A stretch of 38,899 bases of DNA from a candidate division FCPU426 bacterium (GTDB taxonomy: Bacteria; Oederibacteriota; Muellerivitia; Muellerivitales; Muellerivitaceae), in contig JASHNQ010000058.1 of assembly GCA_030041545.1 (NCBI GenBank), positions 1-38,899 of the forward strand, given 5' to 3'. Shown here piece by piece: positions 26,071 through 38,899 of the stretch. The stretch's first letter is position 1. Every line of letters starts with the position of its first letter. Under the pieces are notes generated by a model. That model made no database searches and was not told where the DNA came from. It was given only the letters and a program-made list of their open reading frames with translations. The position numbers and the translations under genes were made by a program.

Positions 26071-27072
26071 CTAAGTCCCTTTCACGCACAAAATCACTTG
26101 GTTTTGGCGCCGATCAGCCGCCAAACCAAACCCCAAGTCCCGGGGGCCCTTTTCTTTCCCATCCCAAATCCGGAGGATTTCCTCAATCCGATCAAAGGAG
26201 AGCCCCCTGGCTAAGGGATTCAACTTTTCACCCACATGCCGGATCCACCGGCGCTGAAGGGCCAAGGGAATCCCGCTGAAATTCAGGGCGTTGCAGGCAT
26301 AGGTGTTCCGACGCCAACGGCTTCGGACCCTCCGCTCCAACGGTTTTAAGAGCCCTTCCAAAAAGGCGTCCTCCGTCGCGTTGAGCTCTCCCACCCGTGC
26401 CAGTACTTCGGGCAAATTCGGGTTCCACCGGGAAAGGAACGGCAGGATCTCATGACGGATCTGGTTCCGGCGGTATTTTGTTTCCCGGTTGGACGCGTCC
26501 TCCCGCCAGGAAATGCCGCGAGATTCAAGGTAATCCTGGATTTGCCTTTTGGAATAGGAAAGGAGCGGCCGCCAAACCCGAAGTACAATCCCTTGCGGGA
26601 ACCCAAGCGTTTGGAGCGGCCTCAACCCGGCCAGTCCCCTTGCCCCCGCTCCCCGCAGAAGCCGGTCCAGGACCGTTTCGGCCTGGTCTTCCCGGTGATG
26701 GGCGACCGCCACACCCCAGGCATTTTCCCTTTTAGCCAGTCGGAGGAAATAGGAATGACGGATTTCCCTGGCCCAATCCTGCGGTGACCTTTTTCCTTTT
26801 TTAATTCCAACCCTCAAATTCTTAACGCGAAACACCCGGCAGGGGATATGCCAAACTCCGCACCAATGGCGGACCATTTCCTCGTCTTTCAGGGAATCCT
26901 GGCCCCGTAACCCGTAATTCACGTGGGCCGCCACCAATTGTTTTCCCTCCTTGGGGAGTTGCTCCTTCAACAGGCACAGTAATCCCAAGGAGTCCGCGCC
27001 ACCGGAAACGCCCACGATCAAGCGGCTGCTTTTGGAAAAAGGGGGAGTCGGCAAGGAAAGGAGGGAGATCAT
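26071..27072 (-). CDS. tilS: tRNA(Ile)-lysidine synthase TilS
   Basis: A 333-residue N-type ATP pyrophosphatase. The PP-loop SGGADS is at 23-28, with AAHVNYGLRG and AVAHHREDQAETVLDRLLRGAGARGLAGL downstream. A following helical segment (about 220-270) fits the TilS substrate-binding insert; the far C-terminal domain of E. coli TilS is not evident, giving a short version. TilS converts C34 of tRNA-Ile(CAU) to lysidine. A CAT-anticodon tRNA 3' half lies 185 bases upstream. Confidence 0.92.
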   Translation of the reverse strand: MISLLSLPTPPFSKSSRLIVGVSGGADSLGLLCLLKEQLPKEGKQLVAAHVNYGLRGQDSLKDEEMVRHWCGVWHIPCRVFRVKNLRVGIKKGKRSPQDWAREIRHSYFLRLAKRENAWGVAVAHHREDQAETVLDRLLRGAGARGLAGLRPLQTLGFPQGIVLRVWRPLLSYSKRQIQDYLESRGISWREDASNRETKYRRNQIRHEILPFLSRWNPNLPEVLARVGELNATEDAFLEGLLKPLERRVRSRWRRNTYACNALNFSGIPLALQRRWIRHVGEKLNPLARGLSFDRIEEILRIWDGKEKGPRDLGFGLAADRRQNQVILCVKGT

Positions 27073-27256: not shown

Positions 27257-27301
27257 TGGTAGCGGGGGAGGGATTCGAACCCTCGACCTACGGATTATGA
27301 G
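27257..27301 (-). other. 3' half of a tRNA gene with CAT anticodon, probable attachment site
   Basis: On the minus strand the sequence runs from the anticodon loop CTCATAA through TCCGT, variable AGGTC, T-arm GAGGG-TTCGAAT-CCCTC, acceptor CCCCGCT, A and an encoded CCA. The bases before the loop do not form the matching 5' stem (ACGGA is needed; TTGTA is found), and no D-arm or 5' acceptor follows. So only the 3' half is present. A tyrosine recombinase gene ends 67 bases away, the classic arrangement of an element integrated in a tRNA. It could derive from tRNA-Met or tRNA-Ile2. Confidence 0.75.
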
Positions 27302-27367
27302 TACAAAGCTCAACCCTTAGGTCCCGCCGACAAAGGTCTTAAACGCATTGAATTACAATGGTTTCCT

Positions 27368-28471
27368 TCACCCCTGGTTTTTAACTATTTCCGGTTCAGC
27401 CGCTTTTGTCATATCCGTGTCATTGGGCCTTAAACGGTCAATGGCACCCTGGCGGTCGGACCGGTCAACGGCATCGTATCGCCTGAACATGGCGGTCGTC
27501 TTGTGGCCGCTGATGCTCATGACGACGTTATCAGGAATACCCGCCTTCCGCAGGTTCGTCACCGCGCAATGCCGGAGGTCGTGGAACTTAAAATCCCCGA
27601 TCCCGGCCCTGGCGCAGGCCCTCCGAAACGCGGTCTTAATGTCCTTAATCGGCTTTCCCTTGAAGGTAAATACGAACCGGCTTCCCAGGGTCCGTGGAAC
27701 CCTCTGGAGCGTTTCCACCAGCTTGGCGTCAAAGGGTACTTCCCTTTTTTCCTGGGTCTTGGTGTCGGCGGCTTCCAGCAGGATGATCCGGTGCTTGAAA
27801 TCCACCTGGTTCCACCGGAGATTCAAAATCTCCCCCCTCCGCATGGCCGTCACGTAGGCCAGTTCCACCATGGCCCTTAAATGCGGCGCGCATTGGGACA
27901 AAAGCCTGTTGTATTCCTCCTGTGTCAGGGTCCTGGACCTTGGGAATTCCTTGAAGGGTTTGAGCCCAATCAGGGGATTCCGGTCCAGTTGCCGGTTGAG
28001 GACGGCCCGGCGGACGATGGTCTTTAAACAGGTGGTCTCCCGGTTGAGGGTGGCCCCCGTTATTTCCTTCCGCCTCGCCTGCCTGCTTTTTTCACGCCGG
28101 AAAACAACGTACTTCTCGACTTGGTCAAGGGTGAGGCTCTCCAAGGTTTGGTTCCCGAAAAAAGCCCTGAGATTGCGGACGAATTCCTCGTCGCGCCGGA
28201 AGGTCTTTTTCCTGGACCTGGAATAACCCAAAAACGCCTCTGCCGCCTCGTTGAAAGTTACTTTCGGCTTCTCAGGAGCCAGATACTTGTTCTCAACGAT
28301 GGCTTGAAGGTGTTGGGCCAAAATCTTCTTTGCCTGCGGCAAAGGGATCTGTCCCAACCTTACCCTTGTCCTCTTCTTAAACCCTCCCTCCTGGATGAAA
28401 TAATCCAGGAAGTATCCCCCCTCATCTTTCCTGAGATGTTGGGGTAAACCGTGGACATTAGGTTTGCTCAT
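27368..28471 (-). CDS. tyrosine recombinase (phage-type integrase)
   Basis: A full-length 367-residue integrase. An N-terminal arm-binding region (about 10-65) is followed by a SAM-like core-binding domain (72-165) and the catalytic domain. The active-site set is visible: Arg211 in TAMRRGEIL, His297 and Arg300 in FHDLRH, His323 in SGHKTTAMF and Tyr332 in RRYDAV. It catalyses site-specific integration and excision. The start overlaps the excisionase stop as ATGA, with GGAGGAA ahead. It is transcribed toward the tRNA fragment at 27257-27301. It looks intact. Confidence 0.93.
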   Translation of the reverse strand: MSKPNVHGLPQHLRKDEGGYFLDYFIQEGGFKKRTRVRLGQIPLPQAKKILAQHLQAIVENKYLAPEKPKVTFNEAAEAFLGYSRSRKKTFRRDEEFVRNLRAFFGNQTLESLTLDQVEKYVVFRREKSRQARRKEITGATLNRETTCLKTIVRRAVLNRQLDRNPLIGLKPFKEFPRSRTLTQEEYNRLLSQCAPHLRAMVELAYVTAMRRGEILNLRWNQVDFKHRIILLEAADTKTQEKREVPFDAKLVETLQRVPRTLGSRFVFTFKGKPIKDIKTAFRRACARAGIGDFKFHDLRHCAVTNLRKAGIPDNVVMSISGHKTTAMFRRYDAVDRSDRQGAIDRLRPNDTDMTKAAEPEIVKNQG

Positions 28472-28776
28472 GACTTCCTCCTAATGCCCCTTGCAGTTTT
28501 CATATTAACAGAATCAGGGGCAATCTCCCAAGCGCCATTTGGGCTTGGCTTGTGGAAGACCTTTTGGAACACGGACCACCATACCCGTGGATGACGCCCG
28601 ACTTTTACGGAGGGAAGAATTCCCACGAAGCGCCAATATTGGACCGTCCGGACCGATACCCCCGCCATTAGGGCCACCTGCTCATCGGTCATCAAGTAGT
28701 CCCGGCCGTTTCGCCTTCGGTCTCCATTTCTTCGATCCTTCATAAATCCAATCCCTCCGGCCAAGCCTCCGTTCAT
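28468..28776 (-). CDS. excisionase-like helix-turn-helix protein
   Basis: A 102-residue protein. Residues about 28-66 (MTDEQVALMAGVSVRTVQYW followed by RFVGILPSVKVGRHPRVWW) form a MerR/Xis-type winged helix-turn-helix. Such proteins assist integrases in excision. Both ends overlap neighbours as ATGA, with the SpoVG-like gene upstream and the integrase downstream, so the three are one operon. An internal ATG (MKDRRNGD) has GGAGGG upstream and may be the real start. Confidence 0.75.
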   Translation of the reverse strand: MNGGLAGGIGFMKDRRNGDRRRNGRDYLMTDEQVALMAGVSVRTVQYWRFVGILPSVKVGRHPRVWWSVFQKVFHKPSPNGAWEIAPDSVNMKTARGIRRKS

Positions 28777-29069
28777 CCTTCGGCTTCGGCGGCCTCCTTG
28801 GCCTTTTTCTTGAACTCGGCCACGGCTACCTTCTTGATCTCTTCCTTGGCTTTCTTGTTGGTGTTGCAGAAGTGGAAATAATCCCCTTCGTTCTTGCCAG
28901 GCCTGGAAGGAAACCCCACGAACAGGTCGTTTCCTTCCTTAGTCTTCACCAAAGTCAGGTCATTGAAAAAAAACTCATAACCCGCGATACCTACTTTCGC
29001 GTCGAAAAACGCCTGGGTATTTTCCCCGTCATAGGGATACATCCTCGTCACCTTGATCTTTAATGCCAT
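28773..29069 (-). CDS. SpoVG-like small protein
   Basis: A 98-residue protein. LKIKVTRMYPYDGENTQAFF, then a FFFNDLTLVKTKEGNDLFVG strand pair and FPSRPG ... HFCNTNKKAKEEIKKVAVAEF follow the SpoVG fold: short conserved strands, a GLFIAMPS-like loop and a C-terminal helix. SpoVG proteins are nucleic-acid-binding regulators in Firmicutes and also occur on phages and mobile elements. The ATG at 29067-29069 is taken because the longer reading starts at a TTG inside the insertion-sequence edge. The stop overlaps the excisionase start. The assignment rests on pattern resemblance only. Confidence 0.6.
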   Translation of the reverse strand: MALKIKVTRMYPYDGENTQAFFDAKVGIAGYEFFFNDLTLVKTKEGNDLFVGFPSRPGKNEGDYFHFCNTNKKAKEEIKKVAVAEFKKKAKEAAEAEG

Positions 29070-29151
29070 TTGCGTCTGACCCGCCCCCCTCAAGTTGGTC
29101 CAGTTGAAAAGTCACACTTTTCTATAATGGGCCAAGAAAAAGGGGGTTTTT

Positions 29152-29430
29152 ATGCCAAGGAAGAAACACAGCGCGGAGCAGATCATTTCCATGTTGCGCC
29201 AGGCCGAGGTTGAGCAGTCCAAGGGCCGTTCGGTTGAGGAAGTCTGCCGAGAGCTTCAAATCACCCCACATACCTACTACCGCTGGCGAAAAGAATACGG
29301 CGGCCTCAAGTTGGACCAGGCCAAGCGCCTCAAGGAGCTGGAGAAGGAGAATTCCCAGCTCAAGCGGGTGGTGGCCGACCTTTCCCTGGATAACCGCATC
29401 CTGAAAGACTTGGCCCGGGGAAACTCCTAA
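29152..29430 (+). CDS. IS3-family transposase OrfA
   Basis: A 92-residue protein with the IS3/IS911 OrfA layout. A helix-turn-helix (about 8-47: SAEQIISMLRQAEVEQSKGR, then CRELQITPHTYYRWRKEYGG) is followed by a leucine zipper (about 57-85, LKELEKENSQLKRVVADLSL). A strong AAGGGGG precedes the ATG. Alone it cannot transpose; in intact elements an OrfAB fusion is made by -1 frameshifting. Confidence 0.9.
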   Translation: MPRKKHSAEQIISMLRQAEVEQSKGRSVEEVCRELQITPHTYYRWRKEYGGLKLDQAKRLKELEKENSQLKRVVADLSLDNRILKDLARGNS

Positions 29431-29431
29431 G

Positions 29432-29490
29432 CCCGGAAAAACGCCGAAAAGCGATCCGAGAAGTCTGTGAGACCCACCGGGCCTCATGGA
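29432..29490 (+). pseudogene. start of IS3 OrfB, truncated
   Basis: In the -1 frame relative to orfA the sequence reads SPEKRRKAIREVCETHRAS, the usual OrfB opening (SPARRREAV..V.E..GVS). After that the reading departs from the family and stops at about 29554. The DDE catalytic core is missing. Confidence 0.6.
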
Positions 29491-29530
29491 TTGCCATGGT
29501 TGACCAGGTATGGTCATGGACCAAAAAAAT

Positions 29531-29574
29531 AGCCTTTGCCCGCCGGGTCTCTTAAACCCTTACAGGCAAAGGCT
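29531..29574. repeat. 10-base perfect inverted repeat
   Basis: AGCCTTTGCC (29531-29540) and GGCAAAGGCT (29565-29574), with an inner GGGT/ACCC pair. No T-run follows on either strand, so it is not an obvious terminator. It lies between the IS3 relic and the Asp tRNA fragment. Confidence 0.45.
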
Positions 29575-29608
29575 TCTAAAATCATGCCAGTGACATGAAA
29601 ATTTTGAA

Positions 29609-29653
29609 TGGCGGGGTTGACGGGGCTCGAACCCGCGACCTCCTGCGTGACAG
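29609..29653 (-). other. 3' half of a tRNA-Asp gene (GTC anticodon), probable attachment-site scar
   Basis: On the minus strand: loop CTGTCAC, stem GCAGG, variable AGGTC, T-arm GCGGG-TTCGAGC-CCCGT, acceptor CAACCCC, G and CCA. This matches bacterial tRNA-Asp. The 5' anticodon stem (CCTGC needed, TTGCTA found), D-arm and 5' acceptor are absent. The bases just 5' of the loop (CTTTGCTACT) resemble those of the CAT fragment at 27257-27301 (CTTTGTACT). No integrase lies next to it. Confidence 0.75.
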
Positions 29654-29671
29654 TAGCAAAGTTGCTATCAC

Positions 29672-30154
29672 CTAGGTTAAAGAGCCTTCATGATCGATGA
29701 TTTCTTCGGTGGTCCATTTGTGGTCGCAAAGAGGGTCCTTGCAGGCCCAATGGTTGAGGATGGTTTTCTCAACGAAAACAACCTGTTCTTGGCGGTTAAT
29801 TTCAATGGTTTGGTTGGGCTCAAAAAGGGTGCGGGAAAAAAGTGTGCCTTGGTCCACCCGGTTGATTGTCCTTAACACTTCCCTTTCATCCGAGATGTCG
29901 TAGTCAACCATCTTCCGTTTAAAGAACCCCTTGCATTGCGGGCAACGGCTCTGGAAAAGTTTCTGAATGGCCCACACGAAGGGCTTGAGGGTCACGAAAT
30001 AGACGGGGTAAAAAGTCGCCACTAGGAACGGCCCGGCCCATCCGATGAAGGCCAGCACAGCGCAGACCACAAGAAAAATACCGGCTCCGGTCAGGACCAA
30101 GTGGAACACACTGAATGAAAGGTGAGTTAAAAAGTTCATGGACACGAACCTCAT
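29672..30154 (-). CDS. two-helix membrane protein with a zinc-ribbon-like domain
   Basis: A 160-residue protein, unrecognised as a named family. Two hydrophobic helices (about 14-38 and 40-58) are followed by a soluble part. Two Cys pairs, CPQCKGFFKRK (about 71) and WACKDPLCDHKW (about 137-148), could bind one zinc. Between them lies an acidic, strand-rich segment. An ATG five codons in (30137-30139) has GAGG about nine bases upstream and may be the true start. The stop lies 19 bases from the tRNA-Asp fragment, so it is the first cargo gene inside that junction. Confidence 0.6.
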   Translation of the reverse strand: MRFVSMNFLTHLSFSVFHLVLTGAGIFLVVCAVLAFIGWAGPFLVATFYPVYFVTLKPFVWAIQKLFQSRCPQCKGFFKRKMVDYDISDEREVLRTINRVDQGTLFSRTLFEPNQTIEINRQEQVVFVEKTILNHWACKDPLCDHKWTTEEIIDHEGSLT

Positions 30155-31364: not shown

Positions 31365-31997
31365 ATGGAAAGGGTTTGTATCTTTATCGATGGCAGCAAT
31401 TTTTACTTTGGCCTCAAGCGCAACAACCGGGCCACCAGGGTGGATTATCACCAGTTAAGCCTCGCCCTTGCCGGTCCCGACCGGACCCTCGTTCGCACCT
31501 ATTACTACAACGTGGCCTACGACAAAAACCAATTCCCCGATAAGGCCAAAAGCCAAATGTCCTTCCTGGACTCCCTGGATCATACCCCATATTTGGAGCT
31601 TCGCTTAGGCCGCCTTGTTTCGACCTTTGACGGCAACATCCAAGAGAGGGGAGTGGACGTTTTAATGGCTTCCGACTTGGTCTATTACGCCGCCCGGAAT
31701 GCCTTTGATACGGCCATAGTGGTGACGGAGGATGGGGATTATTACCCGGCCTTGGAAAAGGTCAAGGAATTGGGCCGTCACATTGAACTGGGCGCCTTCA
31801 ACGACAGCCAGAATCGGGAGCTTACCCGGGTGGCCGACCTTCGAATCCCCCTGGATTCGGTGTTGGATAAATACTCTTCCAAAATCTTCCCACCTGACGC
31901 GGAAGACAACCGTGGAAACCTCTCCGGGTATTCCGAGACCGTTAAAAAAACATTTATTGGGAAACTGATCCGGAATCAACCGGCGGGTTCAAGATAA
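31365..31997 (+). CDS. NYN-domain protein (LabA/DUF88 type, putative RNase)
   Basis: A 210-residue PIN-like NYN domain. Conserved acidic residues: Asp9 in FIDGSNFYFGL, Asp98 and Asp104 in ERGVDVLMASDLVYYA, and Asp123/Asp125 in VVTEDGDYYPAL. The last 50 residues are a polar tail. NYN proteins are Mg2+-dependent RNases or RNA-binding proteins of diverse roles, some in defence. AAAGG precedes the ATG. Its 3' end overlaps that of the convergent AbiEii gene by nine bases. It lies downstream of the XRE gene in the same direction. Confidence 0.85.
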   Translation: MERVCIFIDGSNFYFGLKRNNRATRVDYHQLSLALAGPDRTLVRTYYYNVAYDKNQFPDKAKSQMSFLDSLDHTPYLELRLGRLVSTFDGNIQERGVDVLMASDLVYYAARNAFDTAIVVTEDGDYYPALEKVKELGRHIELGAFNDSQNRELTRVADLRIPLDSVLDKYSSKIFPPDAEDNRGNLSGYSETVKKTFIGKLIRNQPAGSR

Positions 31998-32864
31998 CTC
32001 CGCGAAAGCCTTGTTGAGGGCTTCCAAGGTCTTTCCCATGTCGAAAATCCTTCTTTCCGCCTGCGTCAGCACGTCCAGAAGTTCCACCTTAACCCTGCTT
32101 TTCATATGGGCTATTTCCTTGTCCGGGCGGCCCAGGTTGGAGCGGTATTTCTTGAGGTCGGTATCGAAACCGTCTTCCGCGAGTTTGGCCTTGAAAAGCC
32201 GCAGGAATTCGCCGTCCTCGAAATCGAATCCCGCCTTGAGCAGGTAGCCCAGGTCGTAAAAGTCCCTTGGCGCTATGCCCAGCCGCGTGGCGGCGGCCCG
32301 CGTTTTTTCGGCCACCATCTCCTTGAGGTTGAGGCAACGGACTTCGCCGCCGTTAAACAAGGGTTCCTGGGTGAAGGGATGCAGGAACTTATGGTGGACC
32401 TTCCCCGTTTCAGGCGGCATGAGCGGGTGGAAGCGCAGGCCGATCTCGATCTTGACGGACTGCCGGCCCGGAAGGGTGGCGGAATCATAGTGGAGATGAA
32501 AAATATACTGGCTGGACTCCCTATGACCGGCGGCTTCAGACTCAACGGCCATGCCGCAACTTTCCGCCCACGGCTGTATTTTCGCCTTGATCGGCTTGAA
32601 GGCCGCGCTTCGGACCGTCCGGGTGATGGGCCCTTTCGGCAACTCCAGCGTGAAATCCAAATCCTCGCTCAACCGGTAGTAGGAAAAATGGACCTTGCTC
32701 AAGGCCGTCCCGCCCTTGAACAAAAGCTTGCCGCTCAAGGCGCCCAACTTGGAAAGCAGGAGCGTCAGGTAATAATCCTTTTCCAGGAGGTTCTGGGGAA
32801 ACCCGGTTTGCGCGGCGGCCCGTTCCAGGATTTTAAGGAACTCCTCCCTGTTTTCACGCGGCAT
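31989..32864 (-). CDS. AbiEii-type nucleotidyltransferase toxin
   Basis: A 291-residue minimal nucleotidyltransferase of the AbiEii family. Signatures: LLEKDYYLTLLL (26-37), LLFKGGTALSKVHF (47-60) and RLSEDLDFTLEL (64-75) with the acidic metal ligands, then LNLKEMVAEKTRAAATR and PRDFYDLGYLL. AbiEii toxins transfer nucleotides to tRNA or other substrates and cause growth arrest or abortive phage infection. It overlaps the upstream AbiEi-like gene by 11 bases, the classical antitoxin-toxin order. Confidence 0.88.
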   Translation of the reverse strand: MPRENREEFLKILERAAAQTGFPQNLLEKDYYLTLLLSKLGALSGKLLFKGGTALSKVHFSYYRLSEDLDFTLELPKGPITRTVRSAAFKPIKAKIQPWAESCGMAVESEAAGHRESSQYIFHLHYDSATLPGRQSVKIEIGLRFHPLMPPETGKVHHKFLHPFTQEPLFNGGEVRCLNLKEMVAEKTRAAATRLGIAPRDFYDLGYLLKAGFDFEDGEFLRLFKAKLAEDGFDTDLKKYRSNLGRPDKEIAHMKSRVKVELLDVLTQAERRIFDMGKTLEALNKAFAELS

Positions 32865-33666
32865 CCAGGATCACCTTCCACTTTTTATTGATCGGCCCTT
32901 TCCTGGATTTGGAACCGTAAAGGGTGACTAAGGCCGACTTCTCCACGCTCTTCAACAGTGGTTTCAACAACCCCTCTTTCACGCCTGCTTTTTCCAAGAC
33001 ATATCCAATTCTTTTACGGGTCGATTTGTTAGGGAAAAGAGCCGCGTATTTGACGAGCTTCCCAACGTCGGCCTTCCGGGACTGGGCCTGTTGCTCCAGG
33101 ATCTCGAAGGCCTTCTTGAGCCCCCCCACCGCGTCCGGGAAATACAGTAAGTCCACCAGGGTTCTTTCCCGGTCGCCGACCAGGACTTCGCCGCCATGGA
33201 GGGATACCTTCACGGTCCCATACAGGCGGGAAGGGGGGATTTTCACCAGCTTGAAGGTCATTTTCCCGATGGATTTTTCCCGTTGAAGGGCGGTGTTGAG
33301 GATGTACATGGTCTGGGGTATCTGGTCCAGGAAGCCGTAATAGTTGTACATACCCGTATAACCGACGTAATAGTTCCCCTTGGGAAAAAGGATGGGGGGA
33401 ACGAGGTATTCATTGAGGCTCGTCCCCGAGGGCCCGGCTTCCAGGGGCGAATAAAAATAAACACCCTTGGTGATCGCCGTGAGGATGCCCTTGTTTTTGA
33501 GTCGGGCCACCGTCTTGGCCAGGACCACTGGTGGATACTTGAACCAGGACCTCATTTGCTCAAGTGTCACCACGGCAGCCTTCTCATAGGAAAGCCGGGC
33601 GATGGCCTTGGTTTCATTCGGGTTCAAGTAGACCATTGTATTATTTTTCACGGTTTTCCCAACCAT
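32854..33666 (-). CDS. AbiEi-type antitoxin / transcriptional regulator
   Basis: A 270-residue protein. The N-terminal winged helix (about 17-70) is followed by the conserved AbiEi core with a GYTGMYNYYGF stretch and SLHGGEVLVGDRERTLVDLL. In type IV systems AbiEi represses the operon and neutralises AbiEii activity without direct binding. An in-frame ATG ten codons downstream (33634-33636) is possible; neither start has a clear ribosome binding site. The gene is 66 bases downstream of a DUF6088 gene. Confidence 0.82.
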   Translation of the reverse strand: MVGKTVKNNTMVYLNPNETKAIARLSYEKAAVVTLEQMRSWFKYPPVVLAKTVARLKNKGILTAITKGVYFYSPLEAGPSGTSLNEYLVPPILFPKGNYYVGYTGMYNYYGFLDQIPQTMYILNTALQREKSIGKMTFKLVKIPPSRLYGTVKVSLHGGEVLVGDRERTLVDLLYFPDAVGGLKKAFEILEQQAQSRKADVGKLVKYAALFPNKSTRKRIGYVLEKAGVKEGLLKPLLKSVEKSALVTLYGSKSRKGPINKKWKVILDAA

Positions 33667-34719: not shown

Positions 34720-34992
34720 TTATTCCTTTTCACCGAACTTGCTTGAAAACAAGTTTTGGATCTCCACCCAAGCTTTTTGCGCGTCCTCTCCCTCGAATAT
34801 GAGGTTTAGTTCTTGGCCGTAACCCGCGGCCAGGGTCATAAGGTTGAGGAGGCTTTTAGCGTCCACAAAGCCTTCCTGTCGTTTGACCAGGATGCGGCAC
34901 TTGAATTTCGATGAGGTTTTCACCAATTCAGTGGCCGCCCGCATGTTGAGGCCAAGTTTGTTGAGGATTTTAAAAGTGTGGGTTATTTGCAC
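34720..34992 (-). CDS. HPr-like (Crh-type) protein lacking the phosphorylatable histidine
   Basis: A 90-residue HPr-fold protein. The active-site loop reads NKLGLNMRAATELV where HPr has GLHARPA, so His15 is replaced by Asn while Arg17 is kept. The regulatory site is intact: VDAKSLLNLMTLA, with the Ser46 equivalent. Without His it cannot pass phosphate in the sugar PTS but could still be serine-phosphorylated, like Bacillus Crh (Gln15). The GTG at 34990-34992 is chosen because AGAGG lies upstream; the longer reading is Pro-rich overlap. It lies 34 bases after a lipoprotein gene. Confidence 0.85.
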   Translation of the reverse strand: MQITHTFKILNKLGLNMRAATELVKTSSKFKCRILVKRQEGFVDAKSLLNLMTLAAGYGQELNLIFEGEDAQKAWVEIQNLFSSKFGEKE

Positions 34993-35026: not shown

Positions 35027-35929
35027 TTAGGGTTTTCCCGCAGCCAAATCGATCCGGGTCCAGACGTCGAATTTTTCGGGTTCCGGCGTGGCCTGGGAAC
35101 TTGCGCCATTCTCCCCACCGCCACCGCCGCCACTAAACCCACCGCCTAAGTGGGCGCCAAGGCCAAATCCTCCTCCGCCGAACCCGCCGCCCAATCCCAT
35201 GCCCCCGCCTCCATGGTGCCGGCCGCCGCCGGAACGCTTTTTCTGCCTCTGGAATTCCTCGCCGATCATTTCCAGGGACAAGGCTCCCTTTTGCGCCAGT
35301 TCCGGGGGAAAAGGCGATTGACCCCCGCCACGGAGGGGAATCTTGATCTCGTAAACAAAGGTGTAGTTGTCCAGGTAAGCGGCCCAGGACTCAAAGCCGT
35401 TTTGGGCCAGGGCTTGGGAGGTTATGGTCACGGTGCCTCCCTGCCCATCAAGGATTTCCAAATCCTCCGGGATGAATCCGCCCTGAGGGGCCGTCCCCTG
35501 CGCCGGGGATGGCGCGCCGGGGGATGGCGGGGCGGCCGGGCCCTGGGCCGTGACCGCTGTGGCGCCGGTCGTGTCCTCGGTGGTCACCTCGGGGAATTGG
35601 ATTCCAAAGGCCTTCGCCGAGCCCCCCTCGGGGTCGAACCAGGCCGTCAAACCCACGGAGGTGACGGGAAGGGACGAATCCGGGTTTTCCTCGGTGTCCG
35701 TATCGCGGAAGACCATGGCGAGGAAGAGGGAGTCCTCGTTATTGGCGGCGCCCAGAGAAACCTTTGGGCCGTTGACCTCGGTTACGCCGCCGTTCCAGCC
35801 CTGGATGTCCCCGCTGAAGGGTGGGGCCTTTTCCATCCAGACGCTTTTCACGCCCACCGTTCCGCAACCCCCCGCCATCAAGGACGCCAAAAACAAAATG
35901 GGCAAACCCAGTCCGATTCTGTTTTTCAC
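35027..35929 (-). CDS. glycine-rich lipoprotein of unknown function
   Basis: A 300-residue protein with a lipoprotein signal: hydrophobic GLGLPILFLASLMAGGC, Cys22 being the likely lipidated residue. A beta-rich domain follows, with a WNGGVTEVNG...SLFLAMVFRDTDT pattern that recalls CBM9/DOMON-like folds, then a Pro/Ala linker (about 130-155), and a C-terminal segment rich in Gly with HHGGGG and repeated GGGF units (about 240-280). The GTG at 35927-35929 has GGAGGTG upstream; the longer reading has no signal peptide. Function is unknown. Confidence 0.7.
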   Translation of the reverse strand: MKNRIGLGLPILFLASLMAGGCGTVGVKSVWMEKAPPFSGDIQGWNGGVTEVNGPKVSLGAANNEDSLFLAMVFRDTDTEENPDSSLPVTSVGLTAWFDPEGGSAKAFGIQFPEVTTEDTTGATAVTAQGPAAPPSPGAPSPAQGTAPQGGFIPEDLEILDGQGGTVTITSQALAQNGFESWAAYLDNYTFVYEIKIPLRGGGQSPFPPELAQKGALSLEMIGEEFQRQKKRSGGGRHHGGGGMGLGGGFGGGGFGLGAHLGGGFSGGGGGGENGASSQATPEPEKFDVWTRIDLAAGKP

Positions 35930-36342
35930 AAGGCACCTCCGGTGTTTTGAGCGGTTCAAAAAGGCGTTCCGGCCCCAACCCGGGCCGCAGGGATGGACGC
36001 AGGGCCCGTGAACCGGGGGGGTAAGGAATGATGTCGGAAACCATCGCGGGGCGGAATTCAACCGGATTTCATTCAAAGTGCAAGATTTTCATTGCTTGGA
36101 ATTTGGACGTGCTCTCGGGGGAAAAGTGCCGCCGCGCGTCAGAGTGAACATAAAAGCGGTTGTTGAACCGCTGAGAATTATGTGAAGTAAAAACCGAGTC
36201 GTGCTCATAGCCTCGGACATGTTCTTTTACGCAACCCGGAAAATAAAATAGTTTTCCCGGAAGCATTCTCCCCATATAAGAGACTGTAGCAAAACCACCC
36301 ACCAAGGCTTTCTTTGTTGGGGCTCGAACCTTAAAAGAGGGG
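35930..36342. other. 413-base spacer without a recognised gene
   Basis: A short open reading (36069-36305, minus) has no family resemblance and no ribosome binding site, so I do not annotate it. The spacer holds one terminator-like hairpin (separate entry) and otherwise nothing I recognise. Confidence 0.5.
36150..36172 (-). terminator. probable rho-independent terminator (minus direction)
   Basis: AGCGGTT (36155-36161), GTTG loop, AACCGCT (36166-36172), followed on the minus strand by TTTAT. It lies about 170 bases after the stop of the large secreted protein gene. Confidence 0.5.
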
Positions 36343-38899
36343 CTATAAGACTCTCAAATCAAAAAAATCACAAAACAAGCCCGGAATTCCACCTCCGCCT
36401 GCGGACCAATCCCACCCATATCCTATGTCGATGCCAACGTTTTGGTCCCAAAAATCGCTCATTCCCAATCCCAAATAAAGGGCTTGTAGTGTATCAGACT
36501 TAGTTCCTGCAATAGGCGTCGCCAAAAAAATATTGGCGGAATGAATATTAAAGCTATTTCTGAAGGGTTTTTGAGGTTCAAAATAACAATGCAAAAGAAT
36601 GTCAGCCTGGAAAGCTTGAAAATTAGGAAAAAAATTTGAGATAAAAGACGAAAGTGAATCCGATGGCAAAAGGCTACATCCTAAAGCAATACTTGCTCCA
36701 ATTATTGTTCCATCCATTGTGACAATATCGGTCCCCACGGAATCCGGGAACTGGTTGACTAAAACCATCTTATTGGGAAAGTGGACAGTCATCCGGTTGA
36801 GACTGTCAGGATTCAGGTTAATAAGGGTCACGGCCATATAATAGTCGCCGTTTACGTCAAGGGGTATGGGAGTGAGCATTAATTGCTGATCTGAAGGGGT
36901 GGTGGGGTTACCGGAACCGGAAAGGGATTTCCCCCCCAATGTCCCCGCAACTGATGCGAAGAGATTTTGAAAAGTGTTTTGATAACGCGGAAGGCTGAAA
37001 ACGTCAATGTAAATATCTTGGGTCGGATCAATACTTCCTCCGGAACCCCCTCCGCCACCCCCTCCAGTTGACGGACCCGTCGAGTTTCCACCTTGGTTAC
37101 CACCACCCGAATTTGGACCACCTTTTCCAGAACCCGTATTAGAACCTGTCGGTGTAGTAGCTCCACTAGTAGTAGAAGCGGATTGTTCGCCAGATTTAGA
37201 TTTTGATATTTCCGGAGACATTTCCACAAAATTTGGCTTCCAATTACCGGATACCTTTGGGGTTGTCGCGGCAGTTTGAGTTTTTTGAACCGCTGGTGTC
37301 ACAGTTGCAGTAACGGGTATTTGCCCAGTAGGGGTGGATGTCCACGTCATAGTGGGCGTGGGAGGAGGAGTAGGATAATCCATATCAACATTCGTCACTG
37401 GTTCCGGAGCAAAAGAACTCATAGTAAGAGGTAGAGCGTCGGTGAAAGGAACGCAAATTGAACCACTAAGGGACACAGGCATCTCAAAAGACTGGGTCGA
37501 AGGGACAACTTGTTCCAAAATAGATGCACCTCCGGAAAATGCTATCATCAGAGGCCCCTCGTAACTAAAAGTACAAGGCGCTGAAATCCTTAACGGTGTA
37601 GGCTGCGGCGTTGGTGAAGGAAGAAGTGGATTTGAAACGATTGGAATGGAATAAGAAATAATTCCACTCATGGCTCCTTGATAATAATCTTGACCAAGAA
37701 AACCAAGGGCAGGAGCTTTGTTTTTATTAAAGGACATTGTCACCGGGTTATTGTAGGGTATCGGTATTGTTTCACCGCTTTCAGTCCGGTAAATGATCGT
37801 CAATGGCTGGTTAAGAGTAACAAAAGGGGGGTTCTTGCTTTTGGAAAGATTATTTGACTTCATGAAGAGAGACATGGTGACCGGCCCCTGGATATAAAGT
37901 TCTGACCCAGCGGGAATCACCACCTTTGGGTTCTTGTTGTGAATAATCAAAATGGCGTAAAGATAATTGGCGTCTTTCAAATATTGAACTTGATGGTCCG
38001 TATTTTTGTTTTCTTGCGGGTCTAGTATCCCTTTTTCTCCGTTTTTCCCTTCAAGGTCGTCAAGGTGGGCAAATCCTTCAGTGACACCATCCCCGCTCCT
38101 ATCCCTGGAAGAATCTACATAAATAAACCAGTCGGGTATTTTCGGGTCAGCAAGTTTTCCGAAGATGACCTTTTGGGCAAAGGTAAAATTTCCATTTTGG
38201 AGTGCCGACGCCAACCCGTTCTCCGAAATAATTGGAGCGAAGGAATAATCCGTTTTTTCTTCTCCATTGATACTCAATGGACTAGTACCAAACTTTTTCA
38301 AGTAAATTGAAACAGAATTAGAAAAATTATCGGACAAAGAAATATTATTTGTAACCGGTAATCCAAAATCGGTATTTATAACTGAAACCGCACTATCATT
38401 AATTTCAGGGTAATCTCTTTCAAAAATCTCATAGTTTCCCTTATTATCTTTTTTGGTAAAAGCCAATAAAGTGACTGAACCATCGCTACTAGCCTCAAGT
38501 TTCTTTGATGATTCAACCTCAGCGATTAACGTGTTTCCGCTGGCATCAATAAAAAAAGATACTGGGATTGAAACTGAAAGATTTCCCGAAAGGGTGGCTT
38601 GGTTAGTATTGGGAATATTGGACACGGTCATGGAAAAGGGAATCTTTTGTTGGATCGTAACGGGATTCGAATTGCCCGCATCCACCGTAACGGGAAATTC
38701 AGATATTATCGTCATTGGCTGGTCAAGGATTGTAACGGGCAGGCTTAAATGAACTGTTAATGACCCACTTTTAACGACTGACCAATCCAAAAGTTCCTGC
38801 TCGCCTTTGTTAATACCTAAGTTGTCTGGATAACTTAAATTTTCTGCGTAAGACGCACGAAAGAAGAAAAAAAAACAAAGAAAAAAGAAAATTCCAAAA
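36343..38899 (-). CDS. large secreted repeat-containing protein, N-terminus beyond the right edge
   Basis: At least 851 residues; the reading frame is open to the window edge. The first 18 visible residues are a signal-peptide core (a run of Phe ending in RASYA, then ENLSY), so the start codon lies just outside. The body has many short PVTI/PVTM/PLTM strands, a calcium-loop-like DSSRDRSGDGVTEGFAHLDD, a Pro/Thr linker, a Gly/Ser-rich linker and a C-terminal domain of about 200 residues. Base composition is clearly more A/T-rich than its neighbours. No family recognised; likely an exported surface or extracellular protein. Confidence 0.7.
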   Translation of the reverse strand, partial: FGIFFFLCFFFFFRASYAENLSYPDNLGINKGEQELLDWSVVKSGSLTVHLSLPVTILDQPMTIISEFPVTVDAGNSNPVTIQQKIPFSMTVSNIPNTNQATLSGNLSVSIPVSFFIDASGNTLIAEVESSKKLEASSDGSVTLLAFTKKDNKGNYEIFERDYPEINDSAVSVINTDFGLPVTNNISLSDNFSNSVSIYLKKFGTSPLSINGEEKTDYSFAPIISENGLASALQNGNFTFAQKVIFGKLADPKIPDWFIYVDSSRDRSGDGVTEGFAHLDDLEGKNGEKGILDPQENKNTDHQVQYLKDANYLYAILIIHNKNPKVVIPAGSELYIQGPVTMSLFMKSNNLSKSKNPPFVTLNQPLTIIYRTESGETIPIPYNNPVTMSFNKNKAPALGFLGQDYYQGAMSGIISYSIPIVSNPLLPSPTPQPTPLRISAPCTFSYEGPLMIAFSGGASILEQVVPSTQSFEMPVSLSGSICVPFTDALPLTMSSFAPEPVTNVDMDYPTPPPTPTMTWTSTPTGQIPVTATVTPAVQKTQTAATTPKVSGNWKPNFVEMSPEISKSKSGEQSASTTSGATTPTGSNTGSGKGGPNSGGGNQGGNSTGPSTGGGGGGGSGGSIDPTQDIYIDVFSLPRYQNTFQNLFASVAGTLGGKSLSGSGNPTTPSDQQLMLTPIPLDVNGDYYMAVTLINLNPDSLNRMTVHFPNKMVLVNQFPDSVGTDIVTMDGTIIGASIALGCSLLPSDSLSSFISNFFPNFQAFQADILLHCYFEPQKPFRNSFNIHSANIFLATPIAGTKSDTLQALYLGLGMSDFWDQNVGIDIGYGWDWSAGGGGIPGLFCDFFDLRVL

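Follow-up and report, generated by a model that had tools for sequence, protein, structure and literature searches.

How do the 3' halves of two different tRNA genes come to lie close together in a stretch of DNA that has no intact tRNA gene? The question is raised by a 38,899-nt stretch of contig C100 in a 3.8-Mb, 115-contig metagenome assembly; this entire stretch is referred to here as the window. An earlier note on this DNA had described two tRNA 3' halves in the same orientation, and both were found, on the minus strand: an elongator-type tRNA-Met(CAT) 3' half at 27257 to 27301 (CTCATAATCCGTAGGTCGAGGGTTCGAATCCCTCCCCCGCTACCA) and a tRNA-Asp(GTC) 3' half at 29609 to 29653 (CTGTCACGCAGGAGGTCGCGGGTTCGAGCCCCGTCAACCCCGCCA). 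Each is 45 nt long and runs from position 32 to CCA, its first base coinciding with the start of the anticodon loop. ARAGORN detected no intact tRNA in the window, and matching 3' halves, identical or 91 to 96% identical, are contained in intact tRNAs of the same genome and of relatives. When the whole 3.8-Mb genome was searched with a tRNA 3'-end pattern, there were 53 matches, both fragments among them, versus 1 in the control; by these controlled pattern searches, a chance origin of the Met and Asp fragments is negligible. The half-tRNAs are real leftovers of mobile elements that inserted into tRNA genes.

The Met fragment is an attR (B' side), a chromosomal 3' half displaced by integration, with its native neighbor, tilS (26071 to 27072, minus strand; identified from the open reading frame, orthologues, and empty sites in relatives), on its right flank. 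In seven relatives (G001, G002, G003, and G005 to G008), we observed the empty site, at which tilS directly follows an intact tRNA-Met. Upstream of tilS in this genome come the Met fragment, then the 66-bp P arm of the element, which by its sequence extends from the integrase stop codon to the fragment (27302 to 27367, minus strand), and then the gene for a tyrosine integrase of 367 aa (27368 to 28471, minus strand; PF00589, E = 7e-33), whose candidate catalytic residues (R211, K238, H297, R300, H323, and Y332) are all invariant across the family alignment. Two further minus-strand genes encode an excisionase-like HTH_17 protein (xis; 28468 to 28776; Pfam E = 6e-5, slightly below the gathering score) and a SpoVG-like small protein (28773 to 29093; Pfam match below the gathering score). 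Related elements conserve the SpoVG-like gene along with xis and int, and the int-xis-SpoVG block (27407/27453 to 29076) showed 66 to 72% DNA identity in contigs C41, C31, and C102 of G003. The intact tRNA-Met of this genome was found on another contig (C50:19425-19501), downstream of a tRNA-Leu/fMet pair and in the same order as in relatives. It differs from the fragment by a compensatory T-stem pair (GAGAG/CTCTC versus GAGGG/CCCTC in the fragment), and thus both Met halves derive from once-functional tRNAs. We infer that the attL on C50 and the attR on C100 belong to one element, the middle of which is missing; there was no direct overlap between the ends of the two contigs at any of the lengths tried, 20 to 199 bases.

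A candidate arm-type Int site also connects the two contigs. The 10-mer GCAAGGGGCA (28485 to 28494, minus strand), directly upstream of the integrase Shine-Dalgarno sequence, has a single copy in the window, in the integrase leader, and we observed one copy in the stretch of C50 that was read, in the P' arm, 54 to 63 nt beyond the intact tRNA-Met. For the majority of the family's other integrases, this leader position holds GCTGGGGACA, and the element on contig C106 of this genome has one copy of GCTGGGGACA at its integrase leader and one in the P' arm beyond an intact tRNA-Asp. The site variant therefore goes with its integrase, which ties C50 to C100, and judging from the sequence, the 10-mer GCAAGGGGCA may be bound by Int. 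A pattern unbiased as to tRNA (any tRNA 3' end, 8 to 38 nt, and then TGYYMCHDGC) gave six matches in nine genomes and none in the control; all six were at tRNA-Asp, and the window fragment was one of them. With a spacing of 39 to 69 nt, the same pattern gave four matches, at tRNA-Leu(CAA) only. At one tRNA-Leu(CAA) locus (C75:31654-31731; L285), a P' arm containing TGTCCCCAGC lies beyond the intact tRNA; no family integrase was found on that contig, and we propose that the locus is a further element or a remnant.

The surroundings of the Asp fragment are of a different kind. Its 3' flank (29485 to 29608, minus strand) shows 91% identity to the sequence flanking an Asp fragment on C106 (C106:7515-7650) and 80% to that flanking the intact tRNA-Asp on the same contig (C106:28357-28488), the only intact tRNA-Asp found in this genome. 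The flank contains a hairpin that, with its T run, resembles a terminator, and through this hairpin it can be aligned to the P' arms of Asp elements in G003, G005, and G008, and the flanks of tRNA-Asp loci without this type of arm (in G006, in G001, and on contig C8 of G005) are unrelated. A weak candidate arm site, TGTCACTGGC, lies within the flank of the window fragment at 29586 to 29595 and matches the consensus at 7 of 10 positions. Because this flank represents, in diverged form, the P' arm found in tRNA-Asp elements, the Asp fragment is read as a probable internal junction of Asp-type elements, in the order P, Asp 3' half, P'; a plain attR beside chromosomal DNA was rejected on the same evidence. 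In a relative, contigs C119 and C166 of G001 (L151:3718-3764 with L130) seem to meet within an integrase gene and, if joined, would make up a tRNA-Asp element as short as about 4.6 kb.

On the other side of the Asp fragment, an open reading frame for a cargo protein of 160 aa (29672 to 30154, minus strand) ends 19 bp before it. Relatives of this protein were found only on G000:C69, G006:C23, and G003:C25, and the first two of these three contigs also carry an integrase of the same clade. The cargo includes an AbiEii/AbiEi-type toxin-antitoxin pair (31989 to 33666, minus strand; Pfam). An HPr gene at 34720 to 34989, which shares ~67% identity with a copy on C79, could belong either to the cargo or to the chromosome. 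We set it aside as a sign that the chromosome resumes, since copies elsewhere, in this genome and in others, resemble it about equally well and eight relatives lack its neighbor (35027 to 36076). A large open frame without a Pfam match occupies 36343 to 38790, near the contig end.

The DNA between the two fragments suggests how they came together. An IS3-type transposase orfA (29152 to 29430, plus strand; HTH_Tnp_1, E = 7e-20) is followed by an orfB that, in the frames read, is cut at the Asp P' boundary after about 18 to 30 codons. A truncated IS3 that has lost its right end thus separates the SpoVG-xis-int block from the Asp P' arm. We conclude, with a probability of about 0.72, that two different tRNA-targeting elements, both served by one integrase family, left the fragments behind as scars and that the closeness of the fragments is secondary, the product of fusion by an IS-linked deletion. 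By this reading, an element would first have entered the anticodon loop of the tRNA-Met gene upstream of tilS; its own 3' half would have restored the tRNA-Met that is now the C50 attL, and the old 3' half would have been pushed to 27257 to 27301 as attR, adjoining the SpoVG-like gene, xis, and int. The Asp fragment at 29609 to 29653 would be the junction of two tRNA-Asp-type elements, like those in the C106 array. A deletion beside the now-truncated IS3 copy would then have taken out the intervening DNA, bringing a left end of Asp type up against the Met element on its integrase side. We infer this deletion from the scar that it left and likewise the route of the Asp-type DNA into the tRNA-Met island.

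A chimera of the metagenome assembly, in which the Met end (27257 to about 29150) was joined to an Asp array (29430 upward) at the IS3 stretch, would account for a join that falls within a transposase remnant, in an assembly of 115 contigs that has tRNA-Asp arrays elsewhere (C106). However, no second copy of the IS3 stretch was found in this assembly, and the truncation of IS3 on one side is unlike a mis-join at a full repeat; an assembly join is less likely than a deletion beside the IS, and we consider it improbable. Retargeting, in which an element with the Met integrase acquired one att half from tRNA-Asp (or vice versa) such that its two ends name different tRNAs, would fit the stretch from 27302 to 29608, where the left end is of Asp type and the right end of Met type, as well as the nine or more target switches on the integrase tree. 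Yet the arm-site variant that matches the Met integrase is on C50 by tRNA-Met and not in the Asp P' arm, the 7-bp anticodon-loop overlaps differ (CTCATAA for Met and CTGTCAC for Asp), and the junction is marked by the truncated IS3. With this remnant directly after the Asp P' arm, a deletion fusion of two element types explains the neighborhood better than the capture of a new att site, which the earlier note had put forward and which we hold to be quite unlikely.

The same note had seen similar motifs, CTTTG(C)TACT and CCTA-AGG or CCTAGG, beside both tRNAs and took them as a possible trace of related recombinases. Smith-Waterman alignment of the two 30-nt 5' flanks gave a score of 7 (dinucleotide-shuffle mean, 5.3; p = 0.13); comparison with random 30-mers of the window also gave p = 0.13, and the Met/Asp pair took place 18 in a list of 105 collected flank pairs, with 17 ahead of it. 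The CTTTG(C)TACT match requires a gap, and its final CT is already part of the tRNA loop; CTTTG by itself has 117 copies in the window when both strands are counted. In register, the two flanks agree at only 5 of the last 15 bases. CCTAG was seen again 5' of the loop at three junctions, but its distance to the loop varies among them. A recombinase signature common to the flanks is thus rejected by an alignment no better than random, the outcome that the note itself had named as fatal to its claim, and is hardly credible; the closeness of the two fragments and their "similar flanks" mean little.

The broader idea that related recombinases used different tRNAs fared better and holds for the integrase family at large; between the two fragments there is only one integrase. 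Close integrases are many in relatives, mostly within one family of the candidate phylum FCPU426, and are about 51 to 71% identical to the window integrase; viral contigs yielded only distant integrases, with at most 43% identity over short stretches. Eighteen integrases formed one clade in the tree (support, 100/100), and 16 of the 18 could be paired with a total of ten tRNA targets: Met, a second CAT tRNA, Arg(ACG), Arg(TCT), Ser(TGA), Asp, Phe, Thr(TGT), Val, and Leu(CAA). The tree requires at least nine changes of target, and ten targets could not arise with fewer; each target is therefore consistent with one clade. Three geometries were seen: int may be followed by a codirectional 3' half, have an intact tRNA facing it, or be followed by a codirectional intact tRNA. 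An example of the third is on C69, where an intact tRNA-Ser adjoins the integrase and a displaced 40-nt 5' half of tRNA-Ser(TGA) lies about 5 kb away (C69:11393-11432, minus strand; L044:8394-8433), indicating that this element restores the 5' half. It is mildly unusual for a single clade to restore the 3' half of a tRNA in some cases and the 5' half in others. We tentatively suggest that a single, lineage-specific FCPU426 family keeps a conserved candidate arm site, at its own Shine-Dalgarno sequence and in the P' arm, and freely changes both its target (ten so far) and the tRNA half that it carries, which would be a 3' half distal to int, a 3' half beside int in reverse, or a 5' half beside int. 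Beside an internally deleted integrase on C49, there is a tRNA-Thr(CGT) 3' half (C49:52056-52080, minus strand; L042:7057-7081) whose 5' side is apparently within a protein-coding gene, possibly a secondary-site insertion; a second Thr half at C49:47034 has a 30-nt flank in common with a half at C56:44662.

Much of this resembles the islands collected in Islander, in which the target tRNA is split and restored, a fragment is displaced, tandem arrays occur, and targets are frequently switched (PMC4383910). As in those islands, an intact tRNA is restored at one end and a 3' fragment is displaced at the other, with an adjoining tyrosine integrase, crossover in the anticodon loop, tandem arrays, and frequent integrase target switching (PMC4383910). 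An intact tRNA and its cognate fragment in the correct direction and orientation are present on single contigs for C106 Asp (28444 and 7606) and C114 Arg (59873 and 44459) and, for Met, would be provided by C50 and C100 together; a tyrosine integrase lies inside the interval, and tRNA-Met stands directly before tilS at the empty site in the seven relatives. Taken alone, the Asp fragment falls outside the Islander definition, with no intact tRNA-Asp on the same stretch and no integrase of its own. Unlike the Islander description, the neighboring fragments here represent two target types, probably fused by deletion. Whereas Islander lists 3760 islands with a 3' fragment and 159 with a 5' fragment among 3919 (PMC4383910), here one integrase clade uses ten tRNAs and has at least one member that restores a 5' half. 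Tycheposons of Prochlorococcus and Methylophilaceae, as far as the description consulted goes, are alike in having tRNA borders, a tyrosine recombinase, cargo, and tRNA-Met among their targets (PMC10872708). Compared by that description (PMC10872708), the cargo here comprises an AbiE-type toxin-antitoxin, NYN, a coupling protein, ArdC, and RadC, and nothing specific favors tycheposon identity. The coupling protein is VirD4/TraD-like and is encoded in the C50 and C106 elements next to a gene without a Pfam match; of the relaxase and oriT that mark an integrative mobilizable element, no relaxase was identified. In the KplE1 prophage, arm-type sites likewise overlap the regulatory region of intS, the integrase gene, suggesting autoregulation (PMC2951348); there, attL overlaps the int promoter (PMC2951348), whereas here a single candidate arm site lies at the int Shine-Dalgarno sequence, at the attR end.

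Target switching and tandem accretion of tRNA islands are already known from Islander, and the present case falls within that known kind. It shows that stray tRNA halves can gather through accretion and deletion, such that two neighboring tRNA fragments need not be the two ends of one element. With its numerous mapped targets and covarying arm sites, the compact integrase family is useful for studying change in integrase specificity. If it does combine a conserved candidate arm site with free choice of targets and halves, it would offer a natural series for the retargeting of tyrosine integrases.
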